Source: a virus | Direction: 5' to 3' (one strand) | IMG/VR virus record: IMGVR_UViG_3300047322_000673 | Span: 1-44,050 of that record | Length of the DNA stretch: 44,050 nucleotides | Part shown: positions 501-20,927 of the stretch, one piece after another | How positions within the stretch are numbered: position 1 is the stretch's first letter | Layout of the letters: every line of letters starts with the position of its first letter | Translations under genes and position numbers: made by a program | Notes under the pieces: generated by a model | Database searches by the model: none | Told to the model about the DNA's origin: nothing | The model's input: only the letters and a program-made list of their open reading frames with translations

Positions 501-592
501 GTGAACTCCTGTCGTCGCGTTATGTAACGCGCCGTTTCTCTATGGATCGGGCTGACGCCGGTTGGCCGCTAAGGACCGTTTGCGCTGCGTGC

Positions 593-603: not shown

Positions 604-617
604 GTCGGCCGGACGGA

Positions 618-4061: not shown

Positions 4062-4067
4062 GGTTGC

Positions 4068-4124: not shown

Positions 4125-4157
4125 GGCCGGGATTGTAGGGGTGAACGTCGGACGACG

Positions 4158-4442: not shown

Positions 4443-4579
4443 TTCTTCTTCTTGGGCCGAGGCGGAGCGAACCCCACGGGACGTTTCTTCTTCTTGCGAC
4501 CGACGTTTTCGCTGACGGCAAAGGCCGATCCCGTGCCGAGTTTCGCGGCCCACTCTAGGTCAGGAAGATGCGTGGAAAT
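4439..4579 (-). CDS. Possible 46-residue Lys-rich peptide, start unclear
   Basis: An open frame ends with RPKKKK and a TGA that overlaps the next ATG as ATGA, the operon's usual coupling. It contains a second basic run (GRKKKKRP) and looks like translated sequence. Its frame is closed upstream by a stop shortly before 4579, and no ATG, GTG or TTG is available; the only near-cognate start is ATT at 4579. The start may be non-canonical, or the peptide may be made by frameshift from the upstream glycosyltransferase. Confidence 0.3.
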   Translation of the reverse strand: MSTHLPDLEWAAKLGTGSAFAVSENVGRKKKKRPVGFAPPRPKKKK

Positions 4580-7765: not shown

Positions 7766-8241
7766 TAGCGCCTCCTGAATGATGCGACGGAGCCGTGAAC
7801 GGCGTGGGGGTCGCCGAACATTTCGGTCGCGGCTTTTTTGACATCGGAAAAGTCATAGTCGTGGAACGCGACGACGGGCGGATCGACCCATAGCGTGAGG
7901 ATGATGTCGCGCTGCACTTCGGCGTACTCGTGCTGGCCGTCGATGAACACGAGGTCGAACGCTTCGGCCAGGAGCGGCACGAAGTCTTGGAAGTTGGCGA
8001 CGACCATCGCGACGTTACGTAACGGCCGGATCGCTTCGAGGTAGTCGGCGAGGCTGTCGTCGTCGCCGACCGGGACGCCCTGATGCCGGTCCACCGAGAC
8101 GACGTACTTCGCCACTTCGGAGAGGACGGCGGTCGAGCGGCCCTTGTAGGCGCCGAGCTCAAGGACGGTCTTGCCGGCGCCGAGGCGTTGCAGCTCGGCG
8201 ATGTCGGCCCGTGAGAGCCAGCCCTCGGGGAGCTCAGTCAT
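7765..8241 (-). CDS. Class I SAM methyltransferase (MTase_24 type)
   Basis: 158 residues. The SAM loop VLELGAYKGRS (about residues 27-36), the acidic strand end VVSVDRHQG (about 48-55) and FIDGQHEYAEVQRDI (about 99-113) are the three hallmarks of the Methyltransf_24 group, which often methylates sugar hydroxyls or small molecules. HDY near residue 128 is another expected position. The start ATG overlaps the acetyltransferase stop by 8 bases. It probably caps a sugar in the glycan pathway. Confidence 0.83.
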   Translation of the reverse strand: MTELPEGWLSRADIAELQRLGAGKTVLELGAYKGRSTAVLSEVAKYVVSVDRHQGVPVGDDDSLADYLEAIRPLRNVAMVVANFQDFVPLLAEAFDLVFIDGQHEYAEVQRDIILTLWVDPPVVAFHDYDFSDVKKAATEMFGDPHAVHGSVASFRRR

Positions 8242-8893
8242 ACCACTTGTGCAGCCAAACGCTGCTCGACTCGATGCGGAACCCTGCCGCTGTGAACGCG
8301 CGCTGCGACGGAATGTTGCAGCCTTGCGTGACGACGCTGATCTTGGGGATGCCGAGATGGTAGGCGTGGTTCACGGCGGCGCGTGCGAGGTTCGCGCCGA
8401 TGCCGCGACCGCGTGCGTGCTCGGCCACCGCGATCAGAACGATGGACGCGACCTCCGTGCGGAGGTCGATGGTGACGAAGCCGGCGGGACCACCGCCGTC
8501 GCCGACCATGAGAATGTCCACCGCGTCGTCCACGACGTTCTCGCGGAACCAGCCCTCGTAGAAGTCGTCGCACCGCTCGTCGTCGAAGCGCGGGTCGGCG
8601 TAGAACCGCGACAGGCCACGGAACGCTGTGCGCGAGATGGCCGCGAGCTCGTCCACGTCGGCGGTGGTGATCGGCCGTGCGATTCCGACCTCGGGGCCGG
8701 TGTCGCGGGCGTACTCGACGCGGAAGTCCATGAACTGCGCGCCGTACTCTTCCTCGGCCTGAATCGCATCGTGGTCGGTTGCCGGGATCAGGAACCACGC
8801 GCAATCGACGGCAACATCGCCCACGACCGGCTCATGCTCGGCGCGACCGATCTTCACGCCCCAAAACGCGCTGTCCCACGGTTCGACCTTCAT
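8234..8893 (-). CDS. GNAT N-acetyltransferase, WecD-like
   Basis: 219 residues; ATG at 8893 overlaps the previous stop as ATGA. The first ~70 residues (MKVEPWDSAFWGVKIGRAE...) resemble the N-terminal domain of TDP-fucosamine acetyltransferase, where the phrase 'WDS.FFG..ig' is typical. The GNAT core follows with motif A ARGRGIGANLAR (about residues 160-171), which binds acetyl-CoA, and a C-terminal SQRAFTAAGFRIES motif B. It likely acylates the amino group of an amino sugar. It is one gene away from a PIG-L deacetylase that could free that amine. Confidence 0.82.
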   Translation of the reverse strand: MKVEPWDSAFWGVKIGRAEHEPVVGDVAVDCAWFLIPATDHDAIQAEEEYGAQFMDFRVEYARDTGPEVGIARPITTADVDELAAISRTAFRGLSRFYADPRFDDERCDDFYEGWFRENVVDDAVDILMVGDGGGPAGFVTIDLRTEVASIVLIAVAEHARGRGIGANLARAAVNHAYHLGIPKISVVTQGCNIPSQRAFTAAGFRIESSSVWLHKWYD

Positions 8894-9564
8894 CGGAGCT
8901 GCGGCGGGTAGACCTTCGTGCGGCGGAAGTGCGCGACCATGATTTCCCCTCTCCCTTCGAGTAGCCGGCCGTCCTTGTCGTAGTGGACGGTCGAGAAGTC
9001 GTTGAGGTCGCGGGTCTGCCACGACACGTACTCGCGCCTGAGCAGACCGACCTCGTGCGAGGCGTCCACGACCTCGCTATAGGCGGTTTCGACCCATCCT
9101 GTCGTCGCCGGGTTTTCGAGGTAGCCCCGCCAGTCCTGAACCAAGTGGAAGAGCTGGTTGATCTTCGGCGTGTTCCGGTAGAGCGACCACGGCCCGCTGA
9201 CGTAGGTGGCGTGGTTCGAGAAGATGTCGTATTTGCCGAGCACGTCGTCGGGGAGGAAGTACCCGACGCGGCCGTACACACAGTCGAGGTCGGTGTGGCC
9301 CCAGTAGTCGTAGCCGTCGAGCTCGTCGGCGTAGAGCTCTCCGAAGGCGCAGCGGTAGTCGCAGACCTTGTAGCCGTCGCCGCGCGGGTACTTGACGCCG
9401 AGTACGTCGTGGACGCGCTCGGCGAAGGTGTCCTCAATCGTCTCGAAGAGCAGCTCGTATCCGTCGTCTCGGAGCCGCTCGATGTTCGAGTACCAGAGCG
9501 GAAACCACTCGGGGAGGTCGCCGAAGTACGGGCAGATCAGCAGCTTACGAAGCGACGAACTCAC
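8890..9564 (-). CDS. DUF6625-like glycan-synthesis protein
   Basis: 224 residues from a GTG at 9564. The order of motifs CPYFGDLPEWFPLWYSN, then GDGYKVCDYRCAFG, then YDYWGHTDLDCVYG matches the DUF6625 family, which sits in capsule and O-antigen clusters and looks like a GT-A fold transferase with a DxD (DLD) site. The start overlaps the deacetylase stop by 20 bases and its own stop is coupled to the acetyltransferase. A sugar transferase or mutase-like role is likely. Recognition is from memory of the family pattern. Confidence 0.72.
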   Translation of the reverse strand: MSSSLRKLLICPYFGDLPEWFPLWYSNIERLRDDGYELLFETIEDTFAERVHDVLGVKYPRGDGYKVCDYRCAFGELYADELDGYDYWGHTDLDCVYGRVGYFLPDDVLGKYDIFSNHATYVSGPWSLYRNTPKINQLFHLVQDWRGYLENPATTGWVETAYSEVVDASHEVGLLRREYVSWQTRDLNDFSTVHYDKDGRLLEGRGEIMVAHFRRTKVYPPQLR

Positions 9565-10105
9565 GTTGGTCCTCCCCGAACCACGGTGCGGTCGGAGGGT
9601 GGTTGCGCTGCGACTCGTAGCAGCGGAGAGCCGCCGCCTTCTGCGCGCGCTCGGCCGGCGTCGGGATCACTTCGACGCCGGCCTCGGTGCGGCCGTGGCC
9701 GCGAGCGTAGGTGTAGTAGCGGATCATCTTGAGGTCGAAGTTTCCGACGACCCGCGTGCAGATCGAAGCGAGCGCGTTGTGGTCCTCGTGCCCGCCTGAT
9801 TCCCACGCGGGGAAGATCACCAAGTCGGGCTGGTTGAGCCGCACGTAGGCATCGACGCCCTCGGCGATGCCGTCCCAGTCGGGGGCGTCATCGGTGAAGT
9901 CCGTCCACTGCCAGTATCCGACGCCGGCGGTGTTCGTCGCGCAGAGCGTCTCGGCCTCGCGCGTGCGGGCCGTCGGGCCCCGCTGTGAGAACTCCTGACG
10001 CATGGAGCGGAGGACGACGACGACATCGGCCTGATTCCTGACCATCGTGTAGAACGCGAAGAGCGTCTCGTCGTCGTTGTGGGGGCTGAAGAGGACGGCG
10101 CTCAC
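9545..10105 (-). CDS. PIG-L/LmbE-type N-acetyl-sugar deacetylase
   Basis: 186 residues, GTG at 10105 overlapping the previous stop as GTGA. The zinc-binding motif SPHNDDE (residues 7-13; usual form xPHPDDE) and the second metal motif HEDH (residues 106-109) are both intact. These enzymes remove the acetyl group from GlcNAc or related amino sugars; in Actinobacteria, MshB (mycothiol) is a relative. In this cassette the substrate is probably an N-acetylhexosamine in a precursor or a growing glycan. Cytoplasmic. Its pairing with the nearby GNAT enzyme suggests exchange of the N-acyl group. Confidence 0.86.
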   Translation of the reverse strand: MSAVLFSPHNDDETLFAFYTMVRNQADVVVVLRSMRQEFSQRGPTARTREAETLCATNTAGVGYWQWTDFTDDAPDWDGIAEGVDAYVRLNQPDLVIFPAWESGGHEDHNALASICTRVVGNFDLKMIRYYTYARGHGRTEAGVEVIPTPAERAQKAAALRCYESQRNHPPTAPWFGEDQREFVAS

Positions 10106-10302
10106 TGGCGCGGCATCTTCTGAACGACTTGGATGCCGGTGATCGCGGCGAGCATCCCGTCGGCGGTCTCCTGCCCGAACGAGAGCCAGAGAACCTCCCG
10201 CGTGCGGTCGTCCGTTAGCGAGAGCCGGTAGACGGGGTGGCCGTTGTGCGGCTCGATCTGCTCAATGCCGATCCGAACGTCTCGTAGCTCGGTGATCTTC
10301 AT
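10102..10302 (-). CDS. Small protein of unknown function, 66 residues
   Basis: The ATG at 10302 has a strong ribosome site (GGAGGGAGAGAGC) and overlaps the glycosyltransferase stop as ATGA; its own stop overlaps the deacetylase GTG. The protein looks like a small mixed alpha/beta domain (MKITELRDVRIGIEQ at the start, a YRLSLTDD hairpin and a C-terminal helix). No catalytic motif is recognised. It could be an accessory subunit of the deacetylase or transferase. Confidence 0.6.
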   Translation of the reverse strand: MKITELRDVRIGIEQIEPHNGHPVYRLSLTDDRTREVLWLSFGQETADGMLAAITGIQVVQKMPRQ

Positions 10303-10988
10303 GCTCTCTCCCTCCAACGCCGGCGTCTCGCTTTGAAGAGCGCGGCGTCCCGGTGGAACTCTTTCTGACCCTTCTCGTATATCACATCTCTGACCCCTTT
10401 TGGCTTGCCGCGCTTGTCTCGCCAGAGATAGTGAAGGTGCTCGACGTGCGAGTCGAACGCGAACGCGAAGGCGTCACGCATCATGGCCGTCTCGATGAAC
10501 TCGGTGTCACAGAAGTTGTGGTGGTAGCCCTCGTGGAGCAAGTTGTGAGGCTCGTCGATGGTGCCGAGCTCTAGGTAGGAGCGGTGGACGAGCGAGTGCG
10601 TCGCGTGCTTGCCCGCGATCACGGTCGGGTTGCCGAGGTCGTTCGTGCCGATGACCGGCTTCCCGGTTTCGTGGAAGAGGTCGATGGCCGCTGTGTCCCA
10701 CCCCCGGTGAAAGAAAAGGTCGTCGCCGCCGATGAAGATGAAGTCCGGCGGCGTGTTCCCGATCCGTAGACGCGCGCCGGCGTTGATCTTGCGCGGGTAC
10801 TGGTGGTCGTCGCCGTGGACGATCCAGACGACGGACCCGGTGCCCTTGCACGCCTCGATCTGCTCGTCGTCGCCGGGGGTGACGAGGAACACGATGCGGT
10901 GATCTTCCTCGGTGTTGGCGTGGATCGACTCGACGAGCGGCTGCGCGTTCTTCGGCCGGCCGAGGACGGGGATCAGGAGCTCGATCAT
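10299..10988 (-). CDS. GT-A fold glycosyltransferase, first gene of the glycan cassette
   Basis: 229 residues, ATG at 10988 overlapping the large terminase stop as ATGA. It opens with MIELLIPVLGRPKN, the first strand and loop of a GT2-like enzyme; FIFIGGDDLFF near residues 88-98 is the acidic metal site, and a run of His/Asp residues follows in the acceptor half (HEGYHHNFCDTEF). Basic C-terminus (FKARRRRWRERA). It directly couples glycan enzymes to the packaging gene, so the cassette is expressed late with virion genes. Confidence 0.8.
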   Translation of the reverse strand: MIELLIPVLGRPKNAQPLVESIHANTEEDHRIVFLVTPGDDEQIEACKGTGSVVWIVHGDDHQYPRKINAGARLRIGNTPPDFIFIGGDDLFFHRGWDTAAIDLFHETGKPVIGTNDLGNPTVIAGKHATHSLVHRSYLELGTIDEPHNLLHEGYHHNFCDTEFIETAMMRDAFAFAFDSHVEHLHYLWRDKRGKPKGVRDVIYEKGQKEFHRDAALFKARRRRWRERA

Positions 10989-12562
10989 CGGCCTGCCGCC
11001 GCCGAGAAGATACGGCCCCGGCTGACGGGGCGCGAGCTGATCCAGTTCATCGCCTGCGACCACGCATCTATGTCGTCGTCGTACCGGGCGTTCGGGAAGC
11101 GGGCGCAGTTGTCTACGAAGTCCACGATTTCGGCGGCGTTCCGGGCATCGTCGGGCATGGAGAGCTCGTCGATGCCTTCGCGGAAACCGGGGAGGAACTG
11201 GTTGCCGGTCTCGAGGCCGGCGGCGGCGGATTCGGCCCTGAGCACCTTGTCGCCTTCGTGGGCGCGGCTGAGTTTCTTGCAGCCGCTCAGGATGCTCTTC
11301 AGCTCGTCGTAGAGCTCGACGCCGTAGCCGGCGCCCTCGATCAGCACGTGGTAGCCGGCGCTGCCGAAGCGTTTGCGGTCGCGCACGTAGCGGGCCTGCT
11401 CGATGATCGCGCGCTTCGCCTGCCCCTTATTCATATGGCCTTTCTTCAAGTCCAAGAGGTAACAGTCGGCGCCGGCGACGCCCCACGCTTGGATCGCTAC
11501 GAGGTCGTTCGATTCCTTGTCCTTGAGGGGCGTGTCGATGGACTGGACGATCATCGTGAACCGGGGCCGTCGGCTTTTCAGCTTTTCGTTCGTGAACAGC
11601 TCGGGGTGGTAGAAGCGCCACCAGTACCGCTTCAAGAGGTCGCCCTCGCGGGAGCTCGGCCGCTGCTGCATCTGGCCGGCGGCTCGGTAGCCGAGCGCCT
11701 TCGCCAGCTTGTCCGATTCCTTGTCGCCGCGACGGTCGGGCCACAGGAGCTCACCGTCCTCGGTGCGCGGGTCCCCGCCCCACACGAACGGGTGGTCGGG
11801 CTCGTAGCGCTCAGGGAGGCAGAGGATCGTCCAGTCGTCCGGTTCCTTCTCGAAGGCGTGCGCGGCCAAGTCGTTCTCGTGGAGGCGCTGCATGATGATG
11901 ACGATGGCCGTCGATTTCGGGTCGGCCTTCGACCCTTCCACCGTCGCGTCGTACCACTCGTTCGTGGAGTCGAGCATCACCCGCGATGTGGCGTCGGCGG
12001 CGAGCGCGTTGATCGGGTCGTCGATGATGATGCGGTGGCCGTGCTCGCCGAGGCCGGTCGAGCCGGGGGCGGTCGCCATGCGCGTTCCGCCCTTGTCGTT
12101 CGTGAGGTACTTCTCGGCGTCCTTGACGATGCGGAACTTGTGACCCCACCGGGCCTGATACCACTCGGAGAGCATGAGGTTCCGGCTCATGCCGGCGATC
12201 CGGCCGGCGAGCCCGAGCTCGTAGACGGCCGTCCAGTAGCGGAGCCACGGGTTCCTCGTCCACTCCCACGCCGGCCAGAACACGCTCACGTTCAGCGATT
12301 TCATCGTCCCGCGCGGCACCCATATCTGCAACCGCGTGATTTCGCCTCGTGAGACGGCTTCTAGGTGCTCGCAGATCGCGTCGATGTGCCAGTTGTCCTT
12401 GAACCGCTCGACGGGCTTCAGGACGCCCCAGGCGGCGCGTCCGAACGCTCTGAGGTCGCCGGCGAGCATCTCGGCGTCCTCGCGTGCGCGCCGGCGTTCG
12501 AGCTCGACCCGGATCAGCTCTTTGCGGTAGTCGTCGCCGTCTAGATTCGCTTGCGACGCCAA
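10985..12562 (-). CDS. terL: Terminase large subunit
   Basis: 525 residues; a TTG at 12562 is the likely start, overlapping the small upstream gene by 22 bases. The ATPase domain carries a Walker A-like PRGTMKS (about residues 83-89) and Walker B IIIDDP (about 178-183); the nuclease domain has the RNase H-type acidic residues in SIDTP (Asp343), LIEGAG (Glu409) and YDDDIDAW (about 494-501). It cuts and pumps DNA into the prohead through the portal. The Walker A is unusual, with Thr-Met where most terminases have Gly/His-x. The small terminase lies two genes upstream. Confidence 0.92.
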   Translation of the reverse strand: MASQANLDGDDYRKELIRVELERRRAREDAEMLAGDLRAFGRAAWGVLKPVERFKDNWHIDAICEHLEAVSRGEITRLQIWVPRGTMKSLNVSVFWPAWEWTRNPWLRYWTAVYELGLAGRIAGMSRNLMLSEWYQARWGHKFRIVKDAEKYLTNDKGGTRMATAPGSTGLGEHGHRIIIDDPINALAADATSRVMLDSTNEWYDATVEGSKADPKSTAIVIIMQRLHENDLAAHAFEKEPDDWTILCLPERYEPDHPFVWGGDPRTEDGELLWPDRRGDKESDKLAKALGYRAAGQMQQRPSSREGDLLKRYWWRFYHPELFTNEKLKSRRPRFTMIVQSIDTPLKDKESNDLVAIQAWGVAGADCYLLDLKKGHMNKGQAKRAIIEQARYVRDRKRFGSAGYHVLIEGAGYGVELYDELKSILSGCKKLSRAHEGDKVLRAESAAAGLETGNQFLPGFREGIDELSMPDDARNAAEIVDFVDNCARFPNARYDDDIDAWSQAMNWISSRPVSRGRIFSAAAGR

Positions 12563-12687
12563 AACGGGCCTCTCAGCTTGCGAGCGGTCAAGTAGCGCGC
12601 GTCGCGCTGCGTCGGGGAGGGTGCGACCGTCCGTTTGATCCCGGCCATGCGTTCCAGCTCGTTCCAGTCCTTCGGAAGTTGTCTCAT
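12541..12687 (-). CDS. 48-residue basic protein between the terminase subunits
   Basis: ATG at 12687 overlaps the small-terminase stop as ATGA. Starts MRQLPKDWNELERMAGIKRT and ends in a strongly basic tail (RGPFWRRKRI), with a net positive charge suggesting DNA or protein contact with terminase. No known motif. The coupling on both sides supports expression. Confidence 0.55.
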   Translation of the reverse strand: MRQLPKDWNELERMAGIKRTVAPSPTQRDARYLTARKLRGPFWRRKRI

Positions 12688-13151
12688 GCCTGCTGACCCC
12701 CTTCGATCAGCGCCAGGGACGTGTCGGCGCCCTTCTCGGCCTCGAGCTCGGCGTAGGCGCGTTCGAGCTCGGCCGTGGAGATGTGCGGCATCATCCGGGC
12801 GAGCAGATTGACGTTCACGTTGAGGTTCTGGTTGCGGATCGAGGCCCAGTCGGGGTCGTAGATCATCGCCAGCTTCTCGATCATGCGTGTGTCGCCGCCT
12901 CGGGCCTTGTCCCACACGAGGTCGCGGATTTCTTCGAGCCGGCCCTGCTCGTGCGACTCCGACGTGATCGCGACGCGGTAGGCGTCGGCGAACGAGGCGT
13001 CGTAGTGCTCGGAGGTCGGGTTGCAGAGGCGGCGAAACTGGGTTCCGGTCGAGTCGAGCTGCTCTGCGGCCTGCTGGCGGTTCTGGCCTTCGTAGACGGC
13101 CTTGAGGAAGTCGGCCTTGTCCTCAGCGGTGATGTCGCCGGCGTATTTCAC
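12684..13151 (-). CDS. terS: Probable terminase small subunit
   Basis: 155 residues from the GTG at 13151, chosen because it overlaps the upstream stop as GTGA; a GTG at 13199 would extend it. An N-terminal helix-turn-helix-like segment (about residues 13-45: DKADFLKAVYEGQNRQQAAE followed by a Thr/Gly turn and a FRRLC helix) suits recognition of packaging sites. A helical middle and an acidic C-terminal helix (ELERAYAELEAEKG) suit oligomer formation. Position one short gene before the large subunit agrees. Sequence identity in this family is low, so the call is by layout. Confidence 0.68.
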   Translation of the reverse strand: MKYAGDITAEDKADFLKAVYEGQNRQQAAEQLDSTGTQFRRLCNPTSEHYDASFADAYRVAITSESHEQGRLEEIRDLVWDKARGGDTRMIEKLAMIYDPDWASIRNQNLNVNVNLLARMMPHISTAELERAYAELEAEKGADTSLALIEGGQQA

Positions 13152-13465
13152 GTGGAAATCGTACTTTCGGGATCGGCGCTCTCGTATGGGACCTCCCACG
13201 AGAACGGTGCCTTGTCGAGCGGGTGGGCGGCGCTCTGCCGGTCGGGGTCCTCATCGGACGAGAGAAGGGAGAGAGCCCGTAGCTCGTCCGAGTGCGCCCC
13301 CGACCGGCGCAGCGCCGCTGCCATTTCGAGCATAGCCTGTTCGAGCCGCGCCTGACCGCGTTCGAGCGCCTCGATACGTTCTTTCGCGTGCCGGTGCATC
13401 GTCAGGAGGCCGTTCAGTTGGAAGCCGAGCGAGGCGAGACGGTTTTTCAAGGCCCGGTCGAGCAT
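13148..13465 (-). CDS. 105-residue coiled-coil protein
   Basis: ATG at 13465 overlaps the nuclease stop (TGATG). Residues 1-65 form a basic helical region with heptad-like Leu/Ala spacing (NRLASLGFQLNGLLTMH..., then ALERGQARLEQAMLEMAAAL), probably a coiled coil; the rest is low-complexity and polar. No catalytic motif. It lies between a nuclease and the small terminase and could be a packaging accessory; this is inferred from position only. Confidence 0.55.
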   Translation of the reverse strand: MLDRALKNRLASLGFQLNGLLTMHRHAKERIEALERGQARLEQAMLEMAAALRRSGAHSDELRALSLLSSDEDPDRQSAAHPLDKAPFSWEVPYESADPESTIST

Positions 13466-13848
13466 CAGATCAGGCGCTTCGACTTGAGGATCGTCTCGAT
13501 GGTCGCCTGATCCTCGGGGAGCCATGCGTAAACGCCGACCCTGAGCTCGTTGTAGTAACCCCGTCCAGGCTCGAACACCATCGCCGGCGCTTCGGCCACT
13601 TCGCGGGCAAGGCGTAGGAACTCCTGCTGCTTGTCGGACAGCTTGCCGCCGCTGCCTTTCACTTCGGCGATGACCATGCGCGGCGGGTCGTCGTGGAGTA
13701 GGAAGAGGTCGGGGAGTCCCGCCGCACGGGGACTCCCGACGAACCCTCCCTTGCGATTTGCGACCATCGGCGCCGGGACGTGCCACACCTTCCATCCGGT
13801 CGCTTCGGCGCACGCGACGATCCAGTTGAGGAAGTCGCGCTCTTTCAC
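13465..13848 (-). CDS. VRR-NUC family nuclease
   Basis: 127 residues; GTG at 13848 overlaps the previous stop as GTGA. The PD-(D/E)XK-type site is visible: GSPRAAGLPDLFLLH (Asp of GxPD) followed by MVIAEVKGSGGKLSDKQQEFL (ExK plus the family's S-x-x-Q helix). VRR-NUC proteins resemble Holliday junction resolvases and cut branched DNA. In phages they often sit near the terminase and may clear branched replication products before packaging. A basic N-terminal helix precedes the core. Confidence 0.85.
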   Translation of the reverse strand: MKERDFLNWIVACAEATGWKVWHVPAPMVANRKGGFVGSPRAAGLPDLFLLHDDPPRMVIAEVKGSGGKLSDKQQEFLRLAREVAEAPAMVFEPGRGYYNELRVGVYAWLPEDQATIETILKSKRLI

Positions 13849-14027
13849 TCGTCGTCCCCTAGTGGCCGATGTGGAACCAGTGGTACGGGTTCAGATGGAA
13901 CAGCCAGGAGTATGGGTCGCCGATCAGCGATGCGACGATAGCGGTCAAGAAGTTCGCCTCCCTTCCGTAGCGCGCTTAGAGGGACGGTGACGCCGGTCAG
14001 TGGGTCGCGTGCGAGGAACAGTGGCAT
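13845..14027 (-). CDS. 60-residue protein with a strong start site
   Basis: ATG at 14027 follows CCGAAGGGAGAGAG, the start-associated box shared by many genes here, and the stop overlaps the nuclease GTG as GTGA. The product (MPLFLARDPLTGVTVPLSAL...) is basic and Pro/Leu-rich, with no motif recognised. Another open frame (13859-13948) is nested in its second half with its own ribosome site, so one or both may be translated. Confidence 0.45.
   Translation of the reverse strand: MPLFLARDPLTGVTVPLSALRKGGELLDRYRRIADRRPILLAVPSEPVPLVPHRPLGDDE
13859..13948 (-). CDS. Nested 29-residue aromatic membrane-type peptide
   Basis: A TTG at 13948 lies eight bases after GGAAGGGAGG, a near-perfect ribosome site placed inside the 60-residue gene but in another frame. 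The peptide (MTAIVASLIGDPYSWLF then HLNPYHWFHIGH) is hydrophobic and rich in Trp/Tyr/His, unlike a random shadow frame. It could be a small membrane-active peptide. Expression would need to be shown. Confidence 0.4.
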   Translation of the reverse strand: MTAIVASLIGDPYSWLFHLNPYHWFHIGH

Positions 14028-14046
14028 ATCTCTCTCCCTTCGGTGG

Positions 14047-14226
14047 TTACTTGTGGCCGATCTTCCTGACGAGCTCGTCCACTTGATCTTCGAGCGTGTC
14101 GATTTCGTCGAAGAGCTCGCGCAGCTCGAACGTGCTGAGCCGAATGTACGGGTTGCTCCGTTCGCCTTCGATCTTTTCGAGCCGGTCTCGGATGCTGCTG
14201 AAGCGGTCGTATTCGTTCACGGTCAC
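14047..14226 (-). CDS. 59-residue coiled-coil protein
   Basis: GTG at 14226 overlaps the upstream stop as GTGA. Almost the whole protein is charged helix with heptads (RLEKIEGERSNPYIRLS then TFELRELFDEIDTLEDQVDEL), ending KIGHK. Likely a short oligomerising adaptor; function unknown. Confidence 0.6.
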   Translation of the reverse strand: MTVNEYDRFSSIRDRLEKIEGERSNPYIRLSTFELRELFDEIDTLEDQVDELVRKIGHK

Positions 14227-15005
14227 GGCTTCGTCCAGGCCGCGTAGGTGTCCCAGTCGTCGGAGGTCATCCGGCCCCCGGTGTAGATGGAGCAGCCGGC
14301 GCGCAGGCCGGCCGGCATGTTCTCGTAGGCGGCGAGCGGAATGTAGCCGCCGACGTTCGCGTCCCGGTCGATGTAGAAGCACGCGCTCGTGATGTTCACG
14401 CCCTGCGCGGAGTAGGACGGGTCGGGTGCCATGACTTCGCCGATGAACGCGATAGCGCCCTTGTTGGAGAGCGCGATGGCGTCACGTAACGAGTTGCCGA
14501 GGTTCGCGGGGTTGCCGATGATGTGGCGAGCGCCCCCGCCGATGGCTTCGAGGTACTGACCCTCGTCCTCGGCCTGCCCGCCGGCGAACGCGAGGTTGCG
14601 CTGGTCGGCCATGCGTTGCGCGGCTGTGTATGGGGTGGCGGAACAGTCGCACCATGAGCCGACGATGACACCGGCGTCCTTGAGCATCGCGATCTGCGTT
14701 CCCGAGACGTAGTAGGCGCCGCCGGGGACGGACTCGTTCAGATCAGCGGAGAAGAGCGCGGTGTAGCCGCGCCCGAGCTGGCAGAGACGACTGATCGACG
14801 GCTGCGTGACGTTGGAGAAGTAGACGCAGCGTGCTCCGGGCGGGTGTTGCGGCGGGTTCGGCACGGGGGGCGGCACGGCGTTCACGATTCTGACTTCGTG
14901 GTCGGCGGCGGCGACCATTCGGACGAGCCGCGCTTCGACGGCCGGCGTCATCGTCTGGTTCTTGAGGATGAGCTGCCCGTCGCGGTACGTGTCGAAGCGT
15001 TTCAC
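14223..15005 (-). CDS. Probable TIM-barrel protein, possible glycoside hydrolase
   Basis: 260 residues; GTG at 15005 overlaps the previous stop as GTGA. The first ~50 residues are a separate region ending in a Pro-rich linker (VPPPVPNPPQHPPG). The rest alternates strands and helices like a (beta/alpha) barrel: RCVYFSNV, YTALFSADLNE, AGVIVGSWCD, NLAFAGGQAEDEGQ, AIAFIGEVMAPD and TSACFYIDRD. The acidic residues at strand ends are typical of glycoside hydrolases such as lysozyme-like GH25 or GH114, but I cannot name the family. It could cleave a glycan on the host surface or trim the phage's own glycan. No signal peptide. Confidence 0.5.
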   Translation of the reverse strand: MKRFDTYRDGQLILKNQTMTPAVEARLVRMVAAADHEVRIVNAVPPPVPNPPQHPPGARCVYFSNVTQPSISRLCQLGRGYTALFSADLNESVPGGAYYVSGTQIAMLKDAGVIVGSWCDCSATPYTAAQRMADQRNLAFAGGQAEDEGQYLEAIGGGARHIIGNPANLGNSLRDAIALSNKGAIAFIGEVMAPDPSYSAQGVNITSACFYIDRDANVGGYIPLAAYENMPAGLRAGCSIYTGGRMTSDDWDTYAAWTKP

Positions 15006-15199
15006 TTCAGACGCTCCCGCTTCGACTGTTCGACACAGAGCGCGTACAGATCGTTTGCGACCCGTTCAGCGGCACCCCAGTCGAACGTGAGCTCAACCGT
15101 CGGCCGGTATCCGTCCATCGCCTCGCGTTCGCCCCGGTACTGAATCTCGACGCCGCCGGGGAGCGCGATGATCTTCTCGATGTCAGAAGCCTGGATCAT
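15002..15199 (-). CDS. 65-residue hypothetical protein
   Basis: ATG at 15199 and a stop overlapping the next GTG. It begins MIQASDIEKIIALPGGVEIQ and contains a YRPTVELTFDWGAAERVANDLY segment, consistent with a small alpha/beta domain, and ends in a basic tail. No family recognised. Coupled on both sides within the minus-strand operon. Confidence 0.5.
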   Translation of the reverse strand: MIQASDIEKIIALPGGVEIQYRGEREAMDGYRPTVELTFDWGAAERVANDLYALCVEQSKRERLK

Positions 15200-15407
15200 T
15201 GAACAGCGTCTCCTTCTGCTTGACCTTCGACCGGGACGGCCATGTGGACGGCAGCCCTGGCGGGTGTTTCCGCAGAGGCGCGTCAGGGTCGTTACGTAAC
15301 ACTTCGCAGCCGCCGCAGAGCCAGATGTTCCCTTCGCCGTGCGTGACGACGTGGGCGTCGGAGCCGCCACAGTCGGCGCAGAACGGCCGGCGCCCGCCTT
15401 TAGCCAC
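15183..15407 (-). CDS. Small zinc-ribbon protein
   Basis: 74 residues from a GTG at 15407. Two CxxC knuckles are clear (FCADCGG near residue 10 and WLCGGCE near residue 30), the spacing of a zinc ribbon. The C-terminal half is basic and Pro-rich. Such proteins usually bind DNA or RNA or act as adaptors. It overlaps the membrane peptide gene by 8 bases and contains one copy of the CGTTACGTAAC palindrome (15290-15300). Confidence 0.6.
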   Translation of the reverse strand: MAKGGRRPFCADCGGSDAHVVTHGEGNIWLCGGCEVLRNDPDAPLRKHPPGLPSTWPSRSKVKQKETLFNDPGF

Positions 15408-15585
15408 GGTGACACTCGGCGGCGCTGATTGCGCCCGTCGGCGTGTAGATGATCCCGCTGTCGGTGCAGACGATTCCGGGCGGCGCAGCCACGGCCTTGT
15501 ACGTCCAGTAGCCGCACGCGCCGAGCAGAACGACGACGTAGGCGACGATCAGCCCCCACACGAGGACGGAGAGCCGGTCGGTCAC
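15400..15585 (-). CDS. 61-residue single-span membrane protein
   Basis: GTG at 15585 overlaps the previous stop as GTGA. After MTDRLS comes one hydrophobic helix (VLVWGLIVAYVVVLLGACGY, about residues 7-26), then a short tail with two Cys (IVCTD and AAECH) that would face the outside if the N-terminus is inside. Function unknown; a membrane sensor or exclusion-type protein is possible. Confidence 0.55.
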   Translation of the reverse strand: MTDRLSVLVWGLIVAYVVVLLGACGYWTYKAVAAPPGIVCTDSGIIYTPTGAISAAECHRG

Positions 15586-15851
15586 GGCCTGAGCCTCAGC
15601 GTGACCGTGCTGATGCGGGAGACGCCGATGCGTGTCTGCTCGGTCTCGTGCATCATTTCGAAGTCGGTTTCCATCCCTGTGGCGATGATGACGCCGAAGC
15701 CGGTCGCACGCCAGTCGCGAATGTGGTCGTTGGGAACCTCGAACATTTGCCGCTGCATCGTCATCTGCGGCTTGTCGCCGGCGACGGCACGGATTGCATC
15801 GACGAGGGCCTGCTCGTCCATGCCTAACAGCTCGGCGAGCTCACGGATCAT
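15582..15851 (-). CDS. 89-residue hypothetical protein
   Basis: ATG at 15851 directly follows one arm of a 14-bp inverted repeat. The protein has an N-terminal helix pair (ELAELLGMDEQALVDAIRAV) and a C-terminal half made of strands (FGVIIATGM, RISTVTLRLRP). No motif known. It is the first gene after the RHH regulator in the minus-strand operon. Confidence 0.5.
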   Translation of the reverse strand: MIRELAELLGMDEQALVDAIRAVAGDKPQMTMQRQMFEVPNDHIRDWRATGFGVIIATGMETDFEMMHETEQTRIGVSRISTVTLRLRP

Positions 15852-15980
15852 GTTGAGCGCCGGCGCACGGGTAGGAGGGGGCTACCACTGCAAGAAATCC
15901 CCGCCCTGCGTTGTCGCGCGTCACCGACGAGATAACCGGCAGAGCCCGTTACGGCCAGATCGCCCACGCCGGCGCTCAAC
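15852..15980. repeat. 14-bp perfect inverted repeat, arms 101 bp apart
   Basis: GTTGAGCGCCGGCG (15852-15865) is matched exactly by its reverse complement at 15967-15980. One arm abuts the start codon of the 89-residue gene and the other contains the stop codon of the RHH gene. The enclosed sequence has a small G-rich hairpin (GGTAG, seven bases, CTACC). In RNA the arms could pair and hide the downstream start; as DNA they could bind a protein pair. Nothing else is seen in the interval. Confidence 0.6.
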
Positions 15981-16317
15981 TCTTCGACCCCGGTTTCGGG
16001 TCAGGCTTGAAAGAGCCGGCGGCAGGCGAGGCCGAAGCCACGTCTCTTGTGCCGCCGCCGGCCCCCGCGAGCACGTCCGGGGTCAGGGCCGCGCTCGACG
16101 GAGGGGACGAAGCAACCCGAGGCGCTTCGACAGCCGAAACCGTGGGGGCACTACTCGCGCCGTCCCCACTCCGGTTCCCACCGCTCGGTTCCCCTCCGTC
16201 CAACGCGCGCTCCAACAACACACCCGCGTACCCCGACATCGACAAACGCTTCGCCGCCGCCTCAAGCCGCAACAGATCGTAAGCGTCCTCCGTCAACGTC
16301 ACCGACACCCTCTGCAT
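15976..16317 (-). CDS. Ribbon-helix-helix transcriptional regulator
   Basis: 113 residues from the ATG at 16317; an in-frame ATG at 16329 would add four. The N-terminus MQRVSVTLTEDAYDLLRLEA followed by a KRLSMSGYAGVLLERAL helix is a ribbon-helix-helix fold: a beta strand (RVSVTL) that reads DNA and two helices that dimerise. The remaining ~70 residues are a disordered Ser/Pro/Gly/Ala tail. It is the first gene of the minus-strand unit, and its promoter spacer carries two exact tandem octamers, the kind of site RHH proteins bind, so autorepression and control of the divergent promoters are likely. Confidence 0.75.
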   Translation of the reverse strand: MQRVSVTLTEDAYDLLRLEAAAKRLSMSGYAGVLLERALDGGEPSGGNRSGDGASSAPTVSAVEAPRVASSPPSSAALTPDVLAGAGGGTRDVASASPAAGSFKPDPKPGSKS

Positions 16318-16325
16318 CACGCGCA

Positions 16326-16353
16326 GCATTACAGCACTACAGCACCGTGTCAA
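16326..16353 (-). promoter_or_regulatory. Promoter of the minus-strand unit with tandem octamer operator
   Basis: On the minus strand TTGACA (16353-16348) and TAATGC (16331-16326) are 16 bases apart. The spacer holds GTGCTGTA twice in direct tandem (16345-16338 and 16337-16330), with a partial third copy (16329-16322) in the same 8-base register. Transcription would begin close to 16319, almost on the ATG at 16317, so the message may be leaderless. Tandem 7-8 base repeats inside a promoter are the usual operator form for RHH repressors. Confidence 0.6.
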
Positions 16354-16655
16354 GATGCAGCACCGCAGCAGCACATCACTCTGCTGTGTGAAAAAAACAC
16401 GGGTGGGGTCGCGCCCTCCCCCGAACGTTCGTTCGTATCGGTAGCAGCAAAGTTTCCCCCTGCCGACGCCGGCGCGAGCGAGCGCCTCGAGCGCGCCTCG
16501 AGCTCCGCTGCTACGCCTCGAGCGCGCACGCCGGCGCCTCGAGCTCGCACGCTACGCCGCATAGGTACGCGCCTCGAGCGTAGGCGCCTCGAGCACTACG
16601 CCGGCGCCTAAGACGCATTGACAATCACCCTAACGAGGGATATACACTGTAAAGG
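16330..16655. other. Divergent intergenic control region
   Basis: This gap separates the two transcription units. From left to right it holds the minus-strand promoter and octamers, an A7 run (near 16391), and a stretch from about 16475 to 16610 with six copies of GCCTCGAGC embedded in palindrome-rich sequence, and it ends in the plus-strand promoter (TTGACA at 16618). No gene could be supported within it. The repeats may bind a regulator, but the same word is common across the neighbouring island. Confidence 0.6.
16618..16646 (+). promoter_or_regulatory. Strong sigma70-type promoter of the plus-strand unit
   Basis: A perfect TTGACA (16618-16623) is followed after exactly 17 bases by TATACA (16641-16646). 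The expected start of transcription is near 16653, only a few bases before the first possible ATG (16656), which would make a nearly leaderless message. This is the best consensus promoter in the window and probably drives early genes by host polymerase. Confidence 0.75.
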
Positions 16656-16946
16656 ATGCTAGACGATACTCTGACTATGGCGCGCGAGGGACTAGGCGAG
16701 GGTACGCGCGGAAACCGTGGGCTATTTGAAGGGATGGGTTCTGGTATGTCTGCTACGCCGGTAGTTCTGACTAGTGATGGTGAGGCGTGCGCGCTACGTC
16801 TCGCGCTCGAGGGTTCTATGGTCGCACGTGTCGCGCTACAGGGCTATGACGGTTCTTGGCCTATCGCGCACGTGGAGACCGCTATTAAGACTTGCAACGA
16901 GTTCGGCGCTAGGCGCGTGCGCGCGGAGGCTAGCGACAATGCCTAG
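16656..16946 (+). CDS. Hypothetical protein, first gene of the plus-strand unit
   Basis: 96 residues if the ATG at 16656 is used as a leaderless start; 66 if translation begins at the ATG at 16746, which has GAAGGG twelve bases upstream. The later part (SATPVVLTSDGEACALRLAL then a WPIAHVETAIKTCNEFG helix) looks like a small folded domain, while the first 30 residues are Gly/Arg-rich, so the shorter form is possible. No family recognised. Composition is that of the island. Confidence 0.5.
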   Translation: MLDDTLTMAREGLGEGTRGNRGLFEGMGSGMSATPVVLTSDGEACALRLALEGSMVARVALQGYDGSWPIAHVETAIKTCNEFGARRVRAEASDNA

Positions 16947-17373
16947 CCCCTACCCTTACGGTCCCCTAGACGTTTGGGGTCCTAATCCACGTGCGGCGCT
17001 AGTAGGGGAGTCTGATTACCTTCCCCTGCGCGCTCCGCTCGCGCCTACGCTCGCGGAGAGGCGTGCGGAGCTCGAGGGTAGGCGTATTGCGGCGCTAGGC
17101 CGCCTCGAGGCGCGCGCTCCGCTTGATATCCCGCACGCCTCGGACGCCTACTACCCTGCTACGCCGGTAGGGGCTAGCGAGACTTGCGAGGATTGTGGCG
17201 AGACCATTCCGTCCGAATCGTCTTGGCTAGGTGACTATGGGTGCCCGGTTTGTTATCCCGATTCGGCGCCGGTAGGGGATTCTGATACCGCTCCGCTCGA
17301 GCGCGCCGACGTAGTGCCCGGTATGCGGCGCCTCTCCGATGGACGATGGTACTACTCCGCTAGGTGGCTATGA
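16939..17373 (+). CDS. Small zinc-ribbon protein, 144 residues
   Basis: The ATG at 16939 overlaps the previous stop by 8 bases. The N-terminal half is Pro/Tyr-rich (MPSPYPYGPLDVWGPNP). The second half has CEDCGE and CPVC knuckles about 25 residues apart, a zinc ribbon. It ends with a GMRRLSDGRWYY segment. A role in nucleic-acid binding or as an early host-takeover adaptor is plausible but unproven. Island-type codon use. Confidence 0.5.
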   Translation: MPSPYPYGPLDVWGPNPRAALVGESDYLPLRAPLAPTLAERRAELEGRRIAALGRLEARAPLDIPHASDAYYPATPVGASETCEDCGETIPSESSWLGDYGCPVCYPDSAPVGDSDTAPLERADVVPGMRRLSDGRWYYSARWL

Positions 17374-17603
17374 TCGGCGCCGGAGCTCTCCTAGACCCTT
17401 GGCTAGCCTCGCACGTTTACGTCGTTATCGCGCTCTACGTGCTCGCGGTCCTCGCGGTCTCATGGGACTACGCGCGCGAGTATTGGCACATATGGCGGAT
17501 TAGGCGCCTAATCAGGAGAAACCGCGAGCGCGCGGAGCACTACCGGCGCGAGCTCGCACGCCTCGAGCGCCGGCGCGCCTCGACTGAAGGGAGAGAGCAC
17601 TAA
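17370..17603 (+). CDS. 77-residue membrane protein with basic coiled-coil tail
   Basis: The ATG at 17370 overlaps the previous TGA as ATGA. Residues about 10-32 form one membrane helix (HVYVVIALYVLAVLAVSW), followed by a long Arg/Glu-rich helix (RRLIRRNRERAEHYRRELAR) that should lie in the cytoplasm. Such a layout suits a membrane anchor for another early protein, perhaps the 720-residue product of the next gene, whose start overlaps this stop (TAATG). Confidence 0.5.
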   Translation: MIGAGALLDPWLASHVYVVIALYVLAVLAVSWDYAREYWHIWRIRRLIRRNRERAEHYRRELARLERRRASTEGREH

Positions 17604-19765
17604 TGCGCGTTTTAGACATGGACCGGATAACACTTTCGGACGTTATCGGCGCGCTCGAGGGTAGGCCGCACGGGTCCGAGCGCGAGGCTATCCGTACCTT
17701 TCCGCGCGGACAAATCACCTACGATCTAGGCCGGCGCGAGGCATACTCCTACGGCAGACACTTTCCCCTATTCCGTCAAATAGGGAAACCCACGCGCCGA
17801 TACCCGCGCGGTAGGTGGCTAATCAACGGAGAGCGATGGTCCGGCGCCGGTAGGGGCTGGAATCCCTCGCGCACGCCGGACCATCAGGCGATAGTCAGAG
17901 ACTATCTAGCAGAGGCGCCTACCATTACGCTCCCGTTCGGCGCGCTGCTAGGCGCCGGTATCGAGCTCGAGTCTATCCGCGCGCTCGAGGTTTCCGACGA
18001 TACGTGGATAGAAGTAGAGCGCGAGGCGCGCTCCCTCGCGGAGCTCCCCCTATGGCGCCGGCGCGAGACGTATACGGTAGTGCTCGAGGCGTCGGAGCTC
18101 GAGCGCGTACCGGAGCGTAAGCGGAAACTATGGCGCGAGGCTACGGAGAGCGAGCGCGCGGAGCGCGAGGCGCGCACGCCGGAAACGCATAGACGTTTCC
18201 TAACCTCGCACGATTCTCTACCGCTGCTACCGGACGCCGATGGTCTCTACCGATGGAAAGAGGACCGTACGCGCACCGTTAGCCCCGATTCCGACGGAAT
18301 CTACCGCTATACGGAATCCGCGCACGTGCTCGGAGAGGCTACCTTTAGCGCGGTCCGGCCTATCGGCGAGAGGCGCCGGCGTGCTAAGTACCTATCGGGT
18401 TTCGACACTAACGAGGCGCCGGCGCTCTACTTTCTCGCGGAGCTCCCTACCGGCGCGCCTAGCGATATTGAGGGAGCGCGCCTCGCGCTCGCTCCCCCTG
18501 CGGTCCATGCCGCACTAGCGCGAGGGAGAATCGTAGAGAGGCAGGGAGATATCTTTCTCGTGGATACCGCGCTAGACCGCGCGGAGCTCGAGGCGCGCGG
18601 TGCTATCTTTGCGCGTTTTACCCTCTGGTCTAGAGACGCTAGGCCAAAACGCGGAGAGGCTACCTACCGCGCTCCGCTCTCGCCTAAGACTCGAGACCGG
18701 CGCGATAGGCGCGAGCGCGCACGCCGGCGCGAGATATGGCGCGAGACTTTCCGCGCATGGACCGCTGAAACCGCTACCTATAGCGAGGCGCGCGAGCTCG
18801 AGGCGCGCGAGGCGCGCGAGGCTATGCGCGCTAGGTGGCGAGAGCTCGAGGCGCGCGAGCGCGCGGAGCGCGCACGCTACGGACCAGAGGCGCTAGGCGC
18901 GTGCGACACGTGCGGCGCCGGTATCGGCGAGGCGTGCGCGAGCCTACCGGATAAAGAGAGCGCGCCGGCCGGCCTACCAGAGAGGCTATTCGGCGCTCCC
19001 TGCCCTGGGGAGCGTAGGCGCCGCACGCTAGGAGAGCGGTACCGCTCGGAGCGGTCCGAGCTCGCGCACGCCTCGCGCCGACGTACTACGCCGGCCTATC
19101 TTGCTCCGCGCTCGAAAGAGGGAATCCGCGCACGCCGGCGCGAGGCGCTCGAGCGCGCAGAGGCGCGCCTAGCGAAAACGCGCGCCGATATACGGAGCGC
19201 CGTTTTCTCCGGCGTAGAGCTCCGGACCGATTGGTCCCGGCCTAGCGAGGGATACGGATACGCGCTCCGTATGCCGACGCCTAGCGAGTCCCGTCAAACG
19301 CTGCTAGACCGCATAGGGAGAGCGCGGAGCGCCTATACCGGCGCCTATGGTGCGCTCGCGGAGTACCGGCGCGAGCTTTACAGGGGAGCGCGCGCAGAGG
19401 CGCGAGACGAGACCGCACGCGCTCCGCGCATATGCGTCGCTCTCGAGCTCTACCGGCGCGCGTGCGAGACCGCGCGCGCGGAGATTAGGCCGGAAACCGT
19501 GGATACCGGCGCGCGGTTTCAGAGTAGGCGAGACGCTATCCGTAGCGCGGTCTCTATCTACGGGACCGCGCATACCGCTACGGAGCTCGCGCGCGTGCGC
19601 GGAGCGGTATACGTGCGCGGAGTGGTCTCGCATAGGCCGGAGCTCGAGCGCGGTAGGTTCGGCGCGCCGGACCATAGACCGCTACGCCTTACGCCTGATA
19701 GGTGGTACCTAGCTATCCGTAATACGGTCCCGCGAGCGCGAGGCGTAGACACTAATGGCGCCTAG
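17603..19765 (+). CDS. Large Arg/Glu/Ala-rich protein of unknown function, 720 residues
   Basis: The ATG at 17603 follows CTGAAGGGAGAGAG at the usual distance. Residues about 40-100 (YGRHFPLFRQIGKPTRRYPR then GRWLINGERWSG and TPDHQAIVRDYL) look like a folded domain that I associate loosely with actinophage hypothetical proteins. A cysteine cluster CDTCGAGIGEAC...PCPG near residues 434-475 resembles a zinc knuckle. Much of the rest is charged helix, some of it coiled-coil-like. It has only six Gln and few His, in line with the DNA bias of the island. It is the largest early gene; a replication or host-takeover role is a guess. No enzyme motif is recognised. Confidence 0.55.
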   Translation: MRVLDMDRITLSDVIGALEGRPHGSEREAIRTFPRGQITYDLGRREAYSYGRHFPLFRQIGKPTRRYPRGRWLINGERWSGAGRGWNPSRTPDHQAIVRDYLAEAPTITLPFGALLGAGIELESIRALEVSDDTWIEVEREARSLAELPLWRRRETYTVVLEASELERVPERKRKLWREATESERAEREARTPETHRRFLTSHDSLPLLPDADGLYRWKEDRTRTVSPDSDGIYRYTESAHVLGEATFSAVRPIGERRRRAKYLSGFDTNEAPALYFLAELPTGAPSDIEGARLALAPPAVHAALARGRIVERQGDIFLVDTALDRAELEARGAIFARFTLWSRDARPKRGEATYRAPLSPKTRDRRDRRERARRREIWRETFRAWTAETATYSEARELEAREAREAMRARWRELEARERAERARYGPEALGACDTCGAGIGEACASLPDKESAPAGLPERLFGAPCPGERRRRTLGERYRSERSELAHASRRRTTPAYLAPRSKEGIRARRREALERAEARLAKTRADIRSAVFSGVELRTDWSRPSEGYGYALRMPTPSESRQTLLDRIGRARSAYTGAYGALAEYRRELYRGARAEARDETARAPRICVALELYRRACETARAEIRPETVDTGARFQSRRDAIRSAVSIYGTAHTATELARVRGAVYVRGVVSHRPELERGRFGAPDHRPLRLTPDRWYLAIRNTVPRARGVDTNGA

Positions 19766-20045
19766 CGCGCGGATTATCGAGGCGCCGGCCGGCGCTCCCT
19801 ACGCCTACGCGCTCGAGCGCGCCGGCGTCATACTCGCCTACCGCGCGGAGCGCGCGGAGCTCGAGGCGCTAGCGCGCTATCTAGGCGCGTGCGAGCTTAA
19901 TAGCGCGAGGCGCGAGCTCGCGCGAGAGCTCGCGCGCCTCGAGCGCGCTAGGGAGCGCGCACTACAAAGATTCGAGGCACTACGCCTCGAGGGAGAGGCG
20001 CTAGGTAGCGTCTCTGAAACCGCTAGCGAGACCGCTAGCTACTGA
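19755..20045 (+). CDS. 96-residue helical protein
   Basis: The ATG at 19755 overlaps the previous gene by 11 bases. A short N-terminal strand region (ARIIEAPAGAPYAYALERAG) is followed by a long Ala/Glu/Arg/Leu helix (residues about 30-80), probably a coiled coil. Function unknown; island-type composition. Confidence 0.45.
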   Translation: MAPSARIIEAPAGAPYAYALERAGVILAYRAERAELEALARYLGACELNSARRELARELARLERARERALQRFEALRLEGEALGSVSETASETASY

Positions 20046-20059
20046 AGGGAGAGAGAATA

Positions 20060-20281
20060 GTGGATACCACTACGCTCGAGCGCCTCGAGGCGCCTACGGA
20101 GCGCGAGGCGCCTATGGCGCCGGCGTGCGAGGCGTGCGGTACTACCCTCGCGCCTAACGGGTCCTGCCTCGAAGTAGGCGAGTGCTCCGACGCCGACGCC
20201 GACGCTACGCGCTCCGCTGCTAGGCGGACCGCGAAATATGCGGCGCCTCGCGCATGGACCGTCAGAGGCGGCGTAGATTGA
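20060..20281 (+). CDS. 73-residue protein with a cysteine cluster
   Basis: A GTG at 20060 follows CTGAAGGGAGAGAGAATA, a strong start box. CEACGTTLAPNGSC near residues 23-36 suggests a half zinc ribbon, with a further Cys (GEC) six residues later. Last gene of the island; a terminator follows 56 bases downstream. Confidence 0.5.
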   Translation: MDTTTLERLEAPTEREAPMAPACEACGTTLAPNGSCLEVGECSDADADATRSAARRTAKYAAPRAWTVRGGVD

Positions 20282-20336
20282 CCTAGACCGCGCGCTATAG
20301 GCGCGCCATAGACCGCTACGACGGTAGCGGGTATAG

Positions 20337-20369
20337 GGGAGAGACGCCGGCGCGTCTCTCCCTTTTTTT
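20337..20369 (+). terminator. Intrinsic terminator after the island genes
   Basis: GGGAGAGACGC (20337-20347), a four-base loop, and the exact complement GCGTCTCTCCC (20352-20362) form an 11-bp perfect stem, followed by seven T (20363-20369). This is a textbook factor-independent terminator and ends the first plus-strand transcript. Confidence 0.93.
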
Positions 20370-20640
20370 GTTGGCCGACGCCGGCCGGCCGGAGCTCTAC
20401 CTAGCAGGGAAAGAGAGGCGCCTATCGGCCGGCCGGAATAGCAGAGAGGGAGCGGAGCGCGCGCTAGGCGTGCGAGCGCCTCGAGCTCGAGCGGAGTAGG
20501 CCGGAGTAACGGCCGACGCCTCGCGGAGCGCGAGCGCGCCTCGCACGCCGGCGCGCGCACGCCTCGAGCGGAGCTCGAGCGCGCCTAGCGCCTCGAGCTC
20601 GAGCGCGCCGATACCGGCGCCGGCGCCTCGCGCGCTCGAG

Positions 20641-20740
20641 TCCCTCGAACGAGTTAGGGGAGCACCCCTACCCTGTAGGGGTGTCCCTCGAACGAGTGAC
20701 ACTCGAACGGGGTACCCCCATCGAGGGACACTCGAACGAG
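20641..20740. repeat. Cluster of CTCGAACGRG repeats and inverted repeats
   Basis: CTCGAACGAG occurs at 20644-20653, 20687-20696 and 20731-20740, and CTCGAACGGG at 20702-20711; the first two lie inside identical 14-mers (20641-20654, 20684-20697). Between them are a 9-bp perfect inverted repeat with a 3-base loop (20663-20683) and the palindrome GGGGTACCCC (20709-20718). Iterated sites plus hairpins in 100 bases suggest a protein-binding complex such as an origin, partition site or immunity region. Confidence 0.7.
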
Positions 20741-20770
20741 GGACGAACAGGCGTTCCGGGGTGGCCGAAC

Positions 20771-20838
20771 TATTTCGCGTTCAGGAAGCCCCTGTAATCC
20801 TACGGCGATTTTTTCCGTTCCTGAAGATCCTGTAATCC
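20771..20838 (+). promoter_or_regulatory. Two copies of a bipartite regulatory element
   Basis: Copy A: TATTT (20771-20775), 15 bases, CCTGTAATCC (20791-20800). Copy B: TTTTT (20809-20813), 15 bases, CCTGTAATCC (20829-20838). The spacers share GTTC followed by GAAG. Related copies are at 23026-23055 and 26460-26489. TGTAAT resembles a -10 box 17 bases after the T-rich element, so each could be a phage-type promoter; repressor binding is the alternative. Confidence 0.55.
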
Positions 20839-20898
20839 TGCGCGGTTCCTATGCTCGCGCGCACGCACGCGCGCACGCGCGTAGATAATAGAGAGGGG

Positions 20899-20927
20899 TT
20901 GCGATATACGCGAGACCGTGTTAGTGT
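20899..20927 (+). promoter_or_regulatory. Possible promoter for the second plus-strand transcript
   Basis: TTGCGA (20899-20904) and TAGTGT (20922-20927) are 17 bases apart, and the ATG at 20967 follows 40 bases later with a full start box. The -10 is a weak match. A promoter is needed here because a strong terminator precedes this gene set. Confidence 0.4.

Follow-up and report, generated by a model that had tools for sequence, protein, structure and literature searches.

A restricted DNA vocabulary in an island at the head of the early operon of a 44-kb phage

Type II restriction-site avoidance in phages takes the form of a strand-symmetric absence of short words, and the same absence runs through the phage genome analysed here (IMG/VR record IMGVR_UViG_3300047322_000673; the whole stretch of 44,050 nucleotides is referred to as the window). 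One island in this genome departs from that pattern: many asymmetric words are avoided locally as well, and TA is in surplus, unlike in the rest of the genome. T7 and T5 use a leading-segment form of evasion, in which early DNA enters before the restriction sites do. The window may resemble them in working principle only: its early operon probably lies close to a virion end and would be short of target words, whereas no anti-restriction gene was identified in the island and REBASE sites taken together are no rarer there. Phages that infect CRISPR-bearing hosts show PAM depletion (Kupczok and Bollback 2014, PMC4246573), which likewise involves selection against short asymmetric motifs, and all three islands described below have less AAG/CTT. 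In that study, however, the depletion was described for individual known motifs of phage genomes and not for a 4-kb block with altered vocabulary. The longest gene of the island belongs to the phrog_29643 family, most members of which lack both the dialect and the ~300 extra residues of the window copy and its closest homologue (locus L112). To our knowledge, no stretch of 66% GC in which rho(TA) exceeds 2 and persists through ~50% protein divergence has been reported, and a literature search returned nothing similar.

Extent and signature of the island

The window has a 127-bp terminal overlap and is therefore circular in assembly, with late genes on the minus strand and early genes on the plus strand starting at ~16.6 kb (Table 1). 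The island occupies the head of this early operon. A two-state HMM trained on the window delimits it to ~4.2 kb with a detached piece beyond; its left edge is sharp and its right side tapers over ~20.7-22.5 kb. TA is normally among the scarcest dinucleotide steps, and the original observation, from hand counts, was of an island with TA excess and TG/CA depletion. The effect is real and stronger than those counts: rho(TA) is 2.12 in the island (local peak 2.6) against 0.49 outside, and rho(CA/TG) is 0.43 against 0.88. From 16.5 to 20.5 kb, sliding 1-kb windows give 1.7-2.6 for rho(TA) and 0.34-0.63 for rho(CA/TG), compared with 0.10-0.90 and mostly 0.7-1.05 elsewhere in the window, so the sharp change foreseen near 16.4 and 20.8 kb is present, with a fade on the right. 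In the same windows the TA/CA bias is greatest at 18.5-20 kb, not at the operon start. Meanwhile, GC content is unchanged (0.63-0.69 in the island, 0.63-0.72 outside).

CTAG, which had been noticed as frequent, has 42 sites in the 4.2-kb island against ~27 in the remaining ~39 kb, a 14-fold rise, and GATC is reduced to two sites (7% of the outside rate). The suspected influence on amino-acid use was borne out, as Gln makes up 0.7% of residues in the island against 4.1% outside and Leu is encoded by CTA in 37% of cases against 5% and by CTG in 6% against 26%; Arg reaches 15.3% of residues against 6.3%. The bias crosses genes and gaps, as first observed: it is seen on both strands, in coding and non-coding DNA including the non-coding flanks, and at all codon positions (CA 0.31 at positions 1-2, TA 2.22 at 2-3 and TA 2.96 at 3-1), and is therefore a property of the DNA and not of the proteins. 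Chance is excluded as its source. Most trinucleotide counts, those of depleted words included, are roughly equal on the two strands, and a strand-specific RNA cause was rejected for this reason.

Table 1. Features in and around the island (window coordinates)
Feature	Coordinates	Strand	Basis or remark
Portal (late gene)	2,250-4,061	-	
Terminase (late gene)	10,985-12,562	-	
Divergent RHH (CopG-like) gene, FKPDPK in C-terminal region	15,976-16,374	-	Pfam RHH_5, E 2.4e-6; outside the dialect
Non-coding leader, dense CTCGAG, GGCGCC, GAGCTC	16,440-16,655	.	presumed early promoter region
Dialect island	16,474-20,670	.	HMM; TA, GC, CG up, CA/TG down; reduced strand-symmetric vocabulary
ORF, 96 aa	16,656-16,946	+	without family match
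ORF, ~141 aa, Cys pairs	16,948-17,373	+	zinc-finger matches only sub-threshold
ORF, ~77 aa, one hydrophobic stretch	17,370-17,603	+	ORF translation
ORF, 720 aa, phrog_29643	17,603-19,765	+	E 7e-35
ORF, 96 aa, Arg/Ala/Glu-rich	19,755-20,045	+	ORF translation
ORF, 73 aa, Cys-containing, C-terminal WTVRGGVD	20,060-20,281	+	alignment and tblastn
Non-coding, palindrome-dense island end	20,282-20,745	.	includes CTCGAACGAG repeats at ~20,640-20,745
Small detached dialect piece	20,796-20,924	.	HMM; weaker bias fading to ~22.5 kb
Major head protein (late gene)	42,642-43,943	-	

Words avoided in the island and palindromes avoided in the genome

The island re-uses a small set of words. Distinct 8-mers number 2,275 against 3,058 in trinucleotide-preserving shuffles (z -44), compared with z of -5 to -14 for other 4.2-kb windows of the same genome, and words recur about equally often as direct and as inverted copies, whatever the distance between them. 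Markov models of order 4-5 were needed to reproduce it, which indicates words of 5-6 bp. A count of all 6-mers had been proposed as a means of finding an avoided word, and it found many: 44 of the 184 testable asymmetric 6-mers in the island reach no more than 15% of their expected count, whereas each equal-sized control window has 1-4 such words and simulation 0.3. The avoided set covers a wide range of 5-6-mers (GGAGG, GGCGG, GGCTC, CGGCT, GGGCG, CTTCG, GCCGCG and GGATC, for example), while TA and GCGC are plentiful and CA/TG scarce. Among the three causes originally offered, avoidance of a TG/CA-containing target comes closest, in that words are avoided, but what is avoided is not TG/CA as such and consists mostly of asymmetric 5-6-mers.

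Palindromes are dense in the island, with 237 6-mer palindromes against 178±15 under an order-1 Markov model and 33 10-mers against 18±5. Their density fits the order-3 expectation, so they form part of the vocabulary; the earlier view of them as a by-product of self-complementary CG and TA steps holds in part, although not purely, given the order-1 excess. A hairpin or structured-RNA array was rejected, since inverted copies are no more frequent than direct ones and show no dependence on distance, and RNA folding z (-0.87/-0.70) is close to that of controls (-0.50/-0.24). Rfam and tRNA scans of the locus gave no match.

Recognition palindromes are missing from the window genome beyond what composition would give, as in type II site avoidance. 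Outside the island (1-16000 and 21500-44050), 22 hexamer palindromes occur zero times against 401 expected, and bipartite type II sites, GCCNNNNNGGC and GACNNNNNGTC among them, are likewise at zero. The non-palindromic words ACCTG (43 expected), GCGGAC (27) and CTCCTC (20) are also missing outside the island. GAAGAC is a further word absent from these two regions. Within the island, the banned palindromes number seven against 34-41 expected: one is CGTACG and six are GCTAGC, which has no copy outside. The closest terminase relative (L012, 1-15877; 75%) bans other palindromes, GCCGGC, GCGCGC and CTCGAG among them, these three being common in the window, and this difference suggests a rapid turnover of restriction pressure. 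We read the genome-wide absence of palindromes as the probable result of strong and changing selection by restriction systems.

Asymmetric 5-6-mers are strongly depleted in the island relative to the genome, whereas known defence sites as a whole are not: the sites of 590 REBASE specificities sum to 3,333 in the island against 3,558 by dinucleotide expectation, only 6% below, and a general purge of REBASE sites is unsupported. Asymmetric REBASE sites are poorest in TA (0.71) and carry a CA load of 1.02. Dinucleotide enrichment between island and outside correlates negatively with asymmetric-site load (-0.56, -0.89 and -0.84), a correlation that partly restates the island's preference for self-complementary steps.

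Relatives of the island and candidate explanations

Megablast of the locus against phage records gave no match, nor did a scan of IMG/VR with the single 720-aa protein, and a profile was needed to find homologues. It led to L112 on a 62-kb phage contig (G001), where a full-length homologue of 764 aa (46% identity) lies within a TA island of its own at 27.7-31.5 kb of the contig, with rho(TA) of 1.2-1.9 against ~0.2-0.7 outside. This island is homologous in place, beside the RHH and terminase genes, and synteny is kept: the contig shares the adjacent divergent RHH gene, whose FKPDPK tail is conserved in the alignment, and the 73-aa Cys gene. Island proteins are 39-57% identical between the two phages and core proteins 39-54% (terminase 45%, portal 39%, major head protein (MCP) 54%). 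A model trained only on the G001 island recovers 16.5-20.5 kb when run on the window, with no comparable segment elsewhere. In G001, 9 of 104 asymmetric 6-mers are nearly absent, against 0-1 of ~59 in controls. Island DNA is thus confined to a small strand-symmetric vocabulary that was kept while the two phages diverged to ~39-54% protein identity. The comparison with relatives called for at the outset was also informative in a more distant family member (G401, MCP 38%), which has neither module nor island; the terminase-based relatives L012-L014 do not span the module and say nothing about the island.

A third, weaker island surrounds homologues of the same two genes, the 720-aa and 73-aa genes, in CALMZP010000084.1 (L130 on contig G002), a phage-like contig binned as Acidobacteria with no detected core gene in common with the window. 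The 73-aa gene is conserved next to the 720-aa homologue in both L112 and L130 (alignment and tblastn). Asymmetric-word avoidance barely exceeds controls in G002, and a search of 396 genomes of its phylum returned only G002 itself. The known islands are two strong ones and a weak one. No other GC-rich locus with a comparable block was found among 180 fetched loci (2.3 Mb). Islands occur at three of the 24 homologue-bearing loci, the other 21 having neither an island nor such extreme palindrome avoidance. The three have the lowest palindrome ratios of the 24 (0.27, 0.29 and 0.52; next 0.55) in a post hoc comparison whose overall rank correlation is not significant (rho -0.13, p 0.55); observed/expected hexamer palindromes are 0.30 in G001 and 0.27 in G002. 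The shorter phrog_29643 homologues of annotated Gordonia and Microbacterium phages lie close to the right end of the genome and lack the dialect; that of Microbacterium phage OneinaGillian is ~4 kb from the right end, with the terminase near the left.

The dialect is maintained; it is neither the decaying trace of a foreign origin nor a scar left by C-to-T mutation nor an array of hairpins. Island and core genes have apparently diverged together by vertical descent with the dialect intact, so something maintains it. Origin in a very different phage, as a recent event, does not agree with the data, since genome-banned words were not carried in and the island is not missing in relatives, G001 (54% MCP) having the homologous one; a local anomaly in genome signature does not by itself prove horizontal transfer. 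It is also improbable that the module originated in a group of unsampled phages with a genome-wide dialect and was acquired, possibly separately, by the window phage and G001. The module must be mobile, as it is also found in the unrelated contig G002, and some phage contigs do have excess TA and too little CA throughout, one being L183 (1-12379, 58% GC) with a milder TA-rich dialect (TA 1.10, CA 0.60). However, that dialect differs from the island's (AA 1.40, AG 0.51, GC 1.02), the island obeys the palindrome ban of its own genome, the equal divergence of island and core proteins with synteny kept suggests vertical descent, and amelioration should have erased the bias during the divergence of the window phage and G001. 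More improbable again is a local mutational process, such as C-to-T change at CA/TG or templated quasipalindrome correction near an origin. Such a process is consistent with the dense palindromes and the gradual fading on the right, and the joint fall of CA/TG and rise of TA is what C-to-T change at CpA is expected to give, but a drop in GC should accompany a change of CA to TA and is not seen, which also rejects a RIP-like scar. Furthermore, the constraint reaches 5-6-mer order, deeper than the neighbour-dependent substitution bias of the originally proposed base-specific mutation would leave, the inverted-repeat excess is neither short-range nor greater than the direct-repeat excess, and RNA folding is near that of controls. 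With a simple mutation bias, recent import and hairpins argued against, selection on double-stranded DNA words remains.

The explanation we favour, albeit tentatively and as something short of probable, is negative selection on asymmetric defence targets in an immediate-early, perhaps first-injected, segment, for which we infer both agent and mechanism. The whole phage genome would be purged of palindromic (type II-like) targets and the leading operon additionally of asymmetric 5-6-bp targets, candidate readers of which are type I, IIG and III enzymes, BREX-like systems and CRISPR PAMs. The island would be the segment first expressed and probably first injected, and by analogy with OneinaGillian the operon may lie next to a virion end. 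After the early products are made, defence systems may cease to matter, leaving the rest of the genome to keep its asymmetric words, and TA, GCGC and CG would accumulate in the island as leftover words. This selection is consistent with the strand-symmetric re-use of 8-mers, the constraint at order ~5-6, the nearly absent asymmetric 6-mers, the bias in non-coding DNA and at every codon position, the palindrome ban that the island obeys, the homologous island of G001, the restriction of islands to the three strongest palindrome avoiders and the negative correlation with REBASE load. Against it, the REBASE total is hardly depleted, CA/TG depletion is not predicted by the CA load of asymmetric REBASE sites, the bias does not peak at the operon start, the G002 island is weak, the Gordonia and Microbacterium homologues at genome ends lack islands, and the six copies in the island of GCTAGC, absent outside, make TA look favoured. 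Given the weak REBASE signal, confidence in word avoidance is low. If selection by host defences on the first-entering or first-expressed DNA is nevertheless correct, the avoided words would be a readable log of the asymmetric-target systems of uncultured soil hosts, and leading and trailing phage DNA would be under different selection.

Positive selection for the vocabulary is the main rival to negative selection, since the islands tolerate TA-containing palindromes that are otherwise banned (GCTAGC in the window and G002; GATATC in G001). Island DNA would then be a degenerate TA/GCGC-rich binding or marking substrate for a phage or host DNA-binding protein, possibly one of the module's own products, with a role in timing, packaging or self-recognition; we regard this as doubtful. 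The dialect travels with the 720-aa and 73-aa genes, and the word deviations of the three islands intercorrelate (5-mers, orders 1-2; rho 0.17-0.33, perhaps partly through shared peptides), those of the window and G001 islands being uncorrelated with their own genomes. However, there is no single dominant motif, the top 8-mers differing between islands (CGAGGCGC versus CGGCGCGC), most phrog_29643 homologues have no island, and Pfam, PHROG and PDB fold searches of the island genes gave no match with a function and no known DNA-binding fold. It is rather unlikely that the island DNA is itself a functional yet sequence-degenerate element whose TA/GCGC vocabulary is actively required, for example because a protein encoded in the module uses it to recognise the leading DNA of its own phage. 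On this reading the vocabulary would have survived deep divergence and moved between phages together with the phrog_29643 module.

Genes and repeats of the early operon

The 720-aa protein contains the conserved phrog_29643 cores SYGRHF, RQGDIF, GTAHTATE and NTVP. It also has ~300 extra Arg/Ala/Glu-rich residues, predicted to form long helices, in a family otherwise of ~320-550 aa; the L112 copy has a similar charged helical extension. A PDB fold search with the predicted model of the protein (pLDDT 71) gave no significant match. At the downstream edge of the island (20,640-20,745), repeats of CTCGAACGAG / ACTCGAACG are clustered around a GGGGTACCCC palindrome, and this cluster is a possible operator or set of iterons. 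A near-identical, Shine-Dalgarno-like GAAGGGAGAGAG leader precedes several early genes (~17587, 20045, 20955 and 21238), both inside and outside the island.
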